A DNA stretch of 64,000 nucleotides, taken from positions 62,001 to 126,000 of the forward strand of contig JAEUIE010000053.1 in the NCBI GenBank assembly GCA_016795155.1, written 5' to 3'. The translations under genes were made by a program, and so were the position numbers. Source of the stretch: Planctomycetia bacterium (GTDB lineage: Bacteria > Planctomycetota > Planctomycetia > Gemmatales > HRBIN36). Position 1 is the first letter of the stretch, and each line of letters starts with the position of its first letter. The notes beneath the pieces are model-generated. The model did no database searches. It had not been told where the DNA came from and saw only the letters and a program-made list of their open reading frames with translations. This document shows, piece by piece, positions 16,272 through 17,466 of the stretch.

Positions 16272-16333
16272 GCAGATATTGTAATTGGATGCAGTGAAAC
16301 AACGAGGAGGTACTCTACGATTCTCAGATAGAA

Positions 16334-16372
16334 ACAAAAAAAGTCAGGGGTGTAGATACGCACCCCTGACTT
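16334..16372 (-). terminator. strong intrinsic terminator
   Basis: A perfect 12-bp stem, AAGTCAGGGGTG (16341-16352) with CACCCCTGACTT (16361-16372), and an eight-base loop. On the minus strand the stem is followed at once by a run of T, then GTTTC. It lies 63 bases before the thiO start, so it ends the small RNA or attenuates read-through into thiO. On the plus strand only a short T5 nine bases past the stem could serve. Confidence 0.9.
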
Positions 16373-16544
16373 CTACGTTTTTGCGGCTTGCCGAAGGCAA
16401 CCCGTCGGTTTCCTGGGGCTTACCGCCTCTGGTTACCATTACTCAAGAGTCACCTCCTTTTCGGACTAGGCCTCCCCGCCCAGTGCAGGAACCAGTCTCA
16501 CACCTGCGGGCTCTAGTCAATCGCACGACGTCCGTGCGATCCAT
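16334..16544 (-). ncRNA. candidate structured small RNA of about 210 nt
   Basis: A free-standing transcription unit between thiO and the isomerase-like gene. A consensus promoter (16551-16579) predicts a start near 16544 and a strong intrinsic terminator ends it near 16334. In between are nested stems: ATCGCACG/CGTGCGAT (16520-16540, perfect 8 bp), GACTAG/CTAGTC (16513-16518 with 16464-16469) enclosing GCCC/GGGC and GCAGG/CCTGC, and a TTGCC/GGCAA hairpin near 16388-16403. The RNA also carries AAGGAGGTGA (16459 to 16450), a full complement of the 16S rRNA 3' end. It does not match 6S, SRP RNA, tmRNA, RNase P RNA, TPP or glycine riboswitch signatures I know. It could instead be an attenuating leader of thiO. 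Confidence 0.6.
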
Positions 16545-16550
16545 TAATGA

Positions 16551-16579
16551 ACCATACCCATCTGACTCACCAATGTCAA
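16551..16579 (-). promoter_or_regulatory. sigma70-type promoter of the small RNA
   Basis: On the minus strand, TTGACA (16579-16574, perfect -35) is separated by exactly 17 bases from TATGGT (16556-16551, four of six for the -10). The predicted start is at about 16544, just ahead of the first hairpin. It sits directly behind the stop of the isomerase-like gene at 16597. Confidence 0.65.
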
Positions 16580-16596
16580 TTTCGGTTCACGCATTT

Positions 16597-17466
16597 TTAT
16601 ACATCACAGATGCGGAAGCCTTGTGCTAACGATTGCAATGCATCACGGCGAGGAATAAATTCCTGACCCAGATAGCCTTCATAGCCAGTGGACAGTATGG
16701 CTTTGATGATGGCAGGATAATTCAACTCCTGCGATTCATCGATTTCTGCCCGACCAGGCACACCACCGGTGTGAATGTGACCAATGAACTCTTTATTCTT
16801 CCGGATGGTCTCGATCACATCACCTTCCATGATCTGCATGTGGTAGATGTCGTACAGCAGTTTGAATCGAGGCGAGCCAACTGCTTTGCAAAGTTTGACA
16901 CCCCATTCGGTCTTGTCGTACATGTAGTCCTTGTGATCGCGTTTACTGTTGAGCCCTTCCATGACCAGGGTTATTTTCTTTTCTTCAGCAAATCCAATAA
17001 TCTTTTTGAGTGCCTTGGCACAAGTCTGTAACCCCTCTTCATCGGAGACCGTTTGCCCCTTAATAGTACGATTGCCTGACATACAGATAACACTTGGACA
17101 GCCTTCAGCAGCAGCAAATTCAATACGTTCCCGGAGCTCTTTCAGAATCTTGCTGTGATTCTCTTCCCGATTCAAGCCGTTTACGATGTTTGCCCCACCG
17201 ACTACGGCACAGGTTAAACCATGTTTCTTGATCTTCAGTATTTCATCTGGCAGAAGCAGTTCAATTGACTTGTAGCCGATTTTCACAGCCTCCTCGCAGA
17301 GCCTGGTCAAATCAATTTTGCCATAACACCAGCGGCAAATGGATTGCTTGATATGGTTTTTTCGATGGTGCTCCTGCATGGCTCGTGTCTGCGAAGGGGT
17401 GTACAGCAACGCGCCAGATGTCAGGGTAGCTGTTGTCGCCAATAACTCACGTCGATGAAGTTGCAT
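16597..17466 (-). CDS. exported hydroxypyruvate-isomerase-like TIM-barrel protein
   Basis: A 289-residue AP-endonuclease-2-type TIM barrel (sugar phosphate isomerase/epimerase). Closest by eye to hydroxypyruvate isomerase: SICRWCYGKIDL, IGYKSIELL, metal-site strands VMEGLNS, LLYDIYHMQI, GHIHTGGVPGRAE and the C-terminal GYLGQEFIP. The N terminus MQLHRRELLATTATLTSGALL is a twin-arginine-type signal, as in many planctomycete relatives, so the enzyme is probably exported folded. The frame opens at 17511; the ATG at 17466 is chosen because GAGA lies about eight bases upstream and the Tat motif then starts the protein. True substrate unknown. Confidence 0.85.
   Translation of the reverse strand: MQLHRRELLATTATLTSGALLYTPSQTRAMQEHHRKNHIKQSICRWCYGKIDLTRLCEEAVKIGYKSIELLLPDEILKIKKHGLTCAVVGGANIVNGLNREENHSKILKELRERIEFAAAEGCPSVICMSGNRTIKGQTVSDEEGLQTCAKALKKIIGFAEEKKITLVMEGLNSKRDHKDYMYDKTEWGVKLCKAVGSPRFKLLYDIYHMQIMEGDVIETIRKNKEFIGHIHTGGVPGRAEIDESQELNYPAIIKAILSTGYEGYLGQEFIPRRDALQSLAQGFRICDV

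Follow-up and report, generated by a model that had tools for sequence, protein, structure and literature searches.

We propose that the window, a 64,000-nucleotide stretch of a contig from a Planctomycetia bacterium, contains a stand-alone gene for a structured RNA (16333-16550 on the minus strand; about 210-218 nt, with the ends inferred from a promoter and a terminator), and that this RNA belongs to a family that is conserved across the Planctomycetota. Comparison with related genomes supports this well. The RNA carries a long Shine-Dalgarno sequence and a micro-ORF that ends inside a conserved stem. We put the probability at roughly 45% that it is a translation-gated regulatory RNA, which would capture 30S subunits and be remodelled when it is briefly translated.

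The RNA gene and its distribution

A preliminary description of this DNA had placed TTGACA-17-TATGGT and a terminator with a T-run on either side of a free-standing RNA, perhaps a planctomycete small RNA, of no class that could be named. We found both signals on the minus strand: a sigma-70-type promoter at 16551-16579 (TTGACA at 16579-16574, 17 bp, and TATGGT at 16556-16551) and an intrinsic terminator, stem and T-run, at 16339-16374. The terminator loop, around GCGUAUCUA, reads CGUAUCU, and a TATC motif is present at the place of the terminator in 36 of the 60 homologues of the order. On its own, the promoter match is at chance level for the region (3 found versus 3.2 expected). We consider the promoter to be supported because promoter-like hexamers are conserved at the same place in 93 relatives, where they score 7.1 out of 12, versus 4.4 in shuffles.

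The predicted fold of the whole RNA is more stable than that of shuffled sequences (z = -3.72; 0 of 200 shuffles were equally stable). If the terminator is left out, the excess is modest (z = -2.07; 6 of 200 shuffles were as stable). It is because the RNA gene is conserved in relatives that it lies far beyond chance. An open reading frame on the antisense strand (16285-16629, plus strand) is unsupported.

In a blastn search of 60 related genomes we found three homologues, and blastn against plasmids gave no match. Covariance models reached further, with rough E-values, as these models are home-made, and with overlapping genome samples. Of 102 genomes of the order, 60 (in 35 of 44 genera) have one copy according to model R1, which was built from four sequences, and this first model also had matches in 119 of 398 genomes of the class. 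Model R3, built from 46 diverse sequences, located a single copy in each of 117 genomes from a phylum-wide sample of 392, including families outside the class. One genome of the order had a second, partial match at a contig end. A pattern scan that kept organism names had Tautonia sociabilis, Adhaeretor mobilis, Bythopirellula polymerisocia, and a Gimesia sp. among its matches. Two of the loci (L131 and L186) are on contigs that are labelled as Kuenenia stuttgartiensis; the copy resembles those of Planctomycetia, and this is possibly a binning or labelling error.

We did not find a planctomycete RNA of this kind in the literature. No Rfam family reaches its gathering score here, and at E ≤ 10 the region has no meaningful match, in agreement with the view that the RNA belongs to no named class. 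Structured RNAs that a whole phylum keeps as a single copy per genome are usually important; the one described here is absent from Rfam.

Conserved helices

The preliminary description had proposed a hairpin that we also find, at 16520-16540 on the minus strand. This helix, P1, has 7 bp and a 7-nt loop of the form NNNCG(U/C)N, usually with GUG or GCA. Across relatives, 98.3% of 469 cells pair and the CG of the loop is invariant, and both of these values are inflated by our choice of copies, which used a pairing threshold and the loop motif. That selection does not explain the double changes: there were 72 double-change cells, versus 16.5 in shuffles (0 of 500 shuffles), and versions of the helix that were slid along the alignment had 2-12. 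Conservation of the stems in relatives had been set beforehand as a test, and we regard these compensatory changes as strong evidence of covariation in P1.

GACTAG (16518-16513) and CTAGTC (16469-16464) pair on the minus strand with further pairing inside, as had been described, and close a domain that we call P2 (16464-16518). The closing stem recurs in relatives as GCTAGAG..GGTTCTAGC.

The micro-ORF, a pseudoknot, and a third stem were absent from the preliminary description. This stem-loop, P3 (16383-16426, minus strand), has an outer helix, GCGG/CCGC, and an inner part that includes GACGGG. The outer helix is paired in 88% of cases, and five of its eight pairs have changed on both sides, so the alignments give good evidence for its covariation. 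The inner part has two alternative pairings, each supported in parts of the family. A model of P3 alone identified a single site in the whole of its own genome (E = 5e-8; this site belongs to the training set). With compensatory changes in its stems and a single copy in most genera of the order, the suggestion of a free-standing small RNA of planctomycetes holds.

The Shine-Dalgarno sequence and the micro-ORF

The Shine-Dalgarno sequence, AAAAGGAGGUGA, lies at 16450-16461 (minus strand) and is conserved in relatives. About 11 nt of it are complementary to the 3' end of 16S rRNA, and it pairs with the organism's own 16S 3' end, GGTTGGATCACCTCCTT. Within the window, AAGGAGGTGA has a single mismatch-free occurrence. 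The preliminary description had reported a full complement of the 16S 3' end inside the RNA; the complement is indeed there (AAAAGGAGGTGA at 16461-16450, minus strand), and it is best read as the Shine-Dalgarno sequence of a micro-ORF.

The micro-ORF (UUG AGU AAU GGU AAC CAG AGG CGG UAA; 16420-16446, minus strand) has 8 codons, and its stop codon lies in the 5' side of P3. Both the start and the stop are conserved: 100 of 102 homologues have a start codon at Shine-Dalgarno spacing and a stop codon 8-14 codons later, within P3, versus 9.8 expected from dinucleotide shuffles. (The start codon is GTG in 77 homologues, ATG in 13, and TTG in 10.) Among further loci from model R3, all 28 have a micro-ORF of 8-16 codons, and 20 of these have distinct cores; a few of the 28 are from genomes that were already in the first set. 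Micro-ORFs of different lengths differ by whole codons, and the stop codon shifts by codons instead of vanishing.

The RNA might instead be a ribosome decoy, whose over-long Shine-Dalgarno sequence binds the 3' end of 16S rRNA and sequesters or parks 30S subunits as 6S RNA parks RNA polymerase; translation would then be incidental. This would be consistent with the match to the organism's own 16S rRNA and with the complementarity of about 10-14 nt that nearly all relatives have. However, a decoy has no need of a start codon or of a stop codon at a fixed place, yet nearly all of the homologues have kept both, and the stop moves in steps of codons. We consider a decoy to be unlikely.

Neighbouring genes

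The anatomy of the RNA, with its intrinsic terminator, is like that of a leader peptide, so it could be a cis-acting attenuator of the gene downstream. In the window this gene is thiO, and the preliminary description had offered a leader of thiO as an option. In 41 of the 102 loci (L008-L114), the RNA is followed on the same strand, at a distance of about 165-720 nt, by an aroF-type gene for DAHP synthase; these loci are from the Isosphaeraceae-like group and several genera of Gemmatales. But among the loci examined, thiO is downstream in the window only, which speaks against the thiO option. Where aroF is absent, the gene downstream differs from locus to locus, and simple heuristic gene calls make it convergent in 40 of these 60 loci. 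The three homologues from blastn also differ in their neighbours: clpX (convergent), a ribonucleotide-reductase-like gene (convergent), and a CbiQ-like gene, as named from reading the translations. Thus, we did not find the conserved co-directional downstream gene that is expected for a leader or attenuator. The single copy per genome and the lack of a fixed run of one amino acid in the peptide also argue against attenuation, and we think it improbable. We judge that the synteny with aroF in 41 loci reflects an ancestral neighbourhood and not a function as the leader of aroF. Downstream genes that vary and are often convergent fit a stand-alone gene.

On the upstream side, a divergent gene recurs in 16 Gemmatales loci (L005, L009, L021, L034, L051, L063, and others). 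In one Gemmatales genome, our RNA is followed after about 120 nt by a match to the Acido-Lenti-1 RNA (L050:1805-1849; 32.2 bits versus a cut-off of 37 bits).

The peptide

Our comparison of the homologues shows that the frame of the micro-ORF is conserved and that the peptide is not. Among close pairs of equal length, which are not independent of each other, there were 718, 704, and 649 substitutions at codon positions 1, 2, and 3, so we see neither a bias among codon positions nor the third-position excess that purifying selection on the peptide would give. The arm of P3 is read as RWL or RRL in Gemmatales-like and Isosphaeraceae-like genomes and as RGG in Gimesia-like genomes. Example peptides (MSNGNQRR, MPSDQCTKGRLS, and MDSYCCSQKGGCS) have little in common. 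It is therefore very improbable that the RNA is a small mRNA with the 8-14 residue peptide as its product: the strong Shine-Dalgarno sequence and the conserved start and stop would suit an mRNA, but third positions do not change more often, the frame relative to P3 varies between families, and the peptides share little. The conserved word GGUAACC, we note, also occurs in 16S rRNA.

A probable pseudoknot and a proposed mechanism

The apical loop of P2, CUGGUU (16490-16495, minus strand), is complementary to AACCAG inside the micro-ORF (16429-16434, minus strand), and the two are predicted to form a pseudoknot. When the sequences were aligned independently of this pairing, 82% of cells paired, versus 73% in shuffles, and there were 22 double-change cells, versus 7.4 in shuffles (0 of 1000 shuffles); these shuffles ignore phylogeny, and relatedness is only partly controlled. 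Swapping the loops between dereplicated loci reduced the complementarity (z = 6.5 for native versus swapped). Pairs from relatives include CTGTTT/AAACAG, TTGGTA/TACCAA, TTGATT/AATCAG, and GCTACA/TGTAGC. We saw no covariation of the pseudoknot in the Isosphaeraceae-like group. These comparisons support a pseudoknot between the P2 loop and the micro-ORF in most families. Since the loop would pair with the micro-ORF, the Shine-Dalgarno sequence would sit in the linker that joins P2 to the pseudoknot.

Because the frame is conserved but the peptide is not, the job of the RNA probably depends on its being translated. A conserved micro-ORF, a non-conserved peptide, an extreme Shine-Dalgarno sequence, and a coding sequence that takes part in a pseudoknot together suggest that regulation works via the act of translation. 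We suggest that the long Shine-Dalgarno sequence, exposed between P2 and the pseudoknot, would capture 30S subunits. The ribosome would then read 8-14 codons and stop inside P3, having unzipped the 5' arm of this stem as well as the pseudoknot. This remodelling might alter the stability of the RNA, the holding of the ribosome, or the exposure of a segment that acts in trans. If so, the RNA could report or buffer the capacity of free ribosomes or of initiation.

In Gimesia-like relatives, GGATCACC lies 3' of P3, is complementary to their own Shine-Dalgarno sequence, and mirrors the 16S 3' end (read by eye, in this one group). It could occlude the Shine-Dalgarno sequence, which would be consistent with a switch.

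Similar RNAs in other bacteria

The pattern scan also matched a locus in Nocardioides that Rfam identifies, at 111 bits, as Ms_IGR-5 (RF02471), an sRNA from Actinobacteria. In M. abscessus and M. smegmatis, homologues of Ms_IGR-5 carry footprints of ribosomes (PMC4974804), which is in line with the translation that we propose for the planctomycete RNA. Ms_IGR-5 is transcribed in Streptomyces (PMC8079986, PMC8780764). Like the planctomycete RNA, it is free-standing and has a strong Shine-Dalgarno sequence (AAGGAGGUGGUCC), a micro-ORF that terminates within a stem, and a terminator. Its micro-ORF (for example, MSSSRTREVAAR*) ends in GAGGUGGCUGCCCGCUAG within a stem like GGUGGCUGC/GCAGCCACC (from loci read by eye), and in its actinobacterial relatives the strong Shine-Dalgarno sequence is followed by GAGGTG. 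Unlike the planctomycete RNA, it has no P1/P2 domain 5' of the Shine-Dalgarno sequence, it has a longer insert in P3, and the end of its peptide, REVAAR, is itself conserved. The Ms_IGR-5 model did not match the window, and it had no match at E ≤ 1 among 14 homologues; on one planctomycete genome it reached 16.9 bits, which is not significant. It also had sub-threshold matches in two control genomes, Caulobacter vibrioides and Thermus composti.

CC2171 (RF01867), an sRNA from alphaproteobacteria, also has GAAAGGAGGUGAUCCAGUG, a micro-ORF, and a terminator, with the same Shine-Dalgarno sequence and start. It differs in its longer ORF (about 24-26 codons, starting with MSHC), in having no P1/P2, and in a pairing between the 5' part of its ORF and the sequence that precedes the terminator. 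The CC2171 model scored 23-29 bits on four planctomycete homologues, below its cut-off of 75 bits.

Our model of the planctomycete RNA ranks actinobacterial and alphaproteobacterial RNAs highly if the Shine-Dalgarno sequence is included, mainly through that sequence, and a model of the planctomycete P3 without it had no significant match to the actinobacterial loci. The Shine-Dalgarno sequence, ORF, and terminator are shared and the link to the actinobacterial RNAs through P3 alone is not significant, so we describe the three RNAs as sharing a design. A bolder reading, which we find doubtful, is that they are branches of one ancient class of single-copy, ribosome-engaging RNAs, in which the act of translation and not the peptide would be the function, and which would be an unrecognised translational counterpart of 6S RNA. 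Read in this way, two widespread sRNAs of Rfam whose function is unknown would have an interpretation in common, and a testable one.

tmRNA and 6S RNA are also stable, single-copy structured RNAs that act on the ribosome or on RNA polymerase, and tmRNA also holds a short ORF. The planctomycete RNA is neither of these. It has no tRNA-like domain and no Rfam match to tmRNA (RF00023), and the 6S model (RF00013) has no match at the locus; the genome's tmRNA and its 6S candidate are both elsewhere, on contig C15. The 6S candidate (G000, contig C15, 28083-28266) scores 44.8 bits versus the Rfam cut-off of 46.4; planctomycete 6S RNA seems to be under-scored by the Rfam model.
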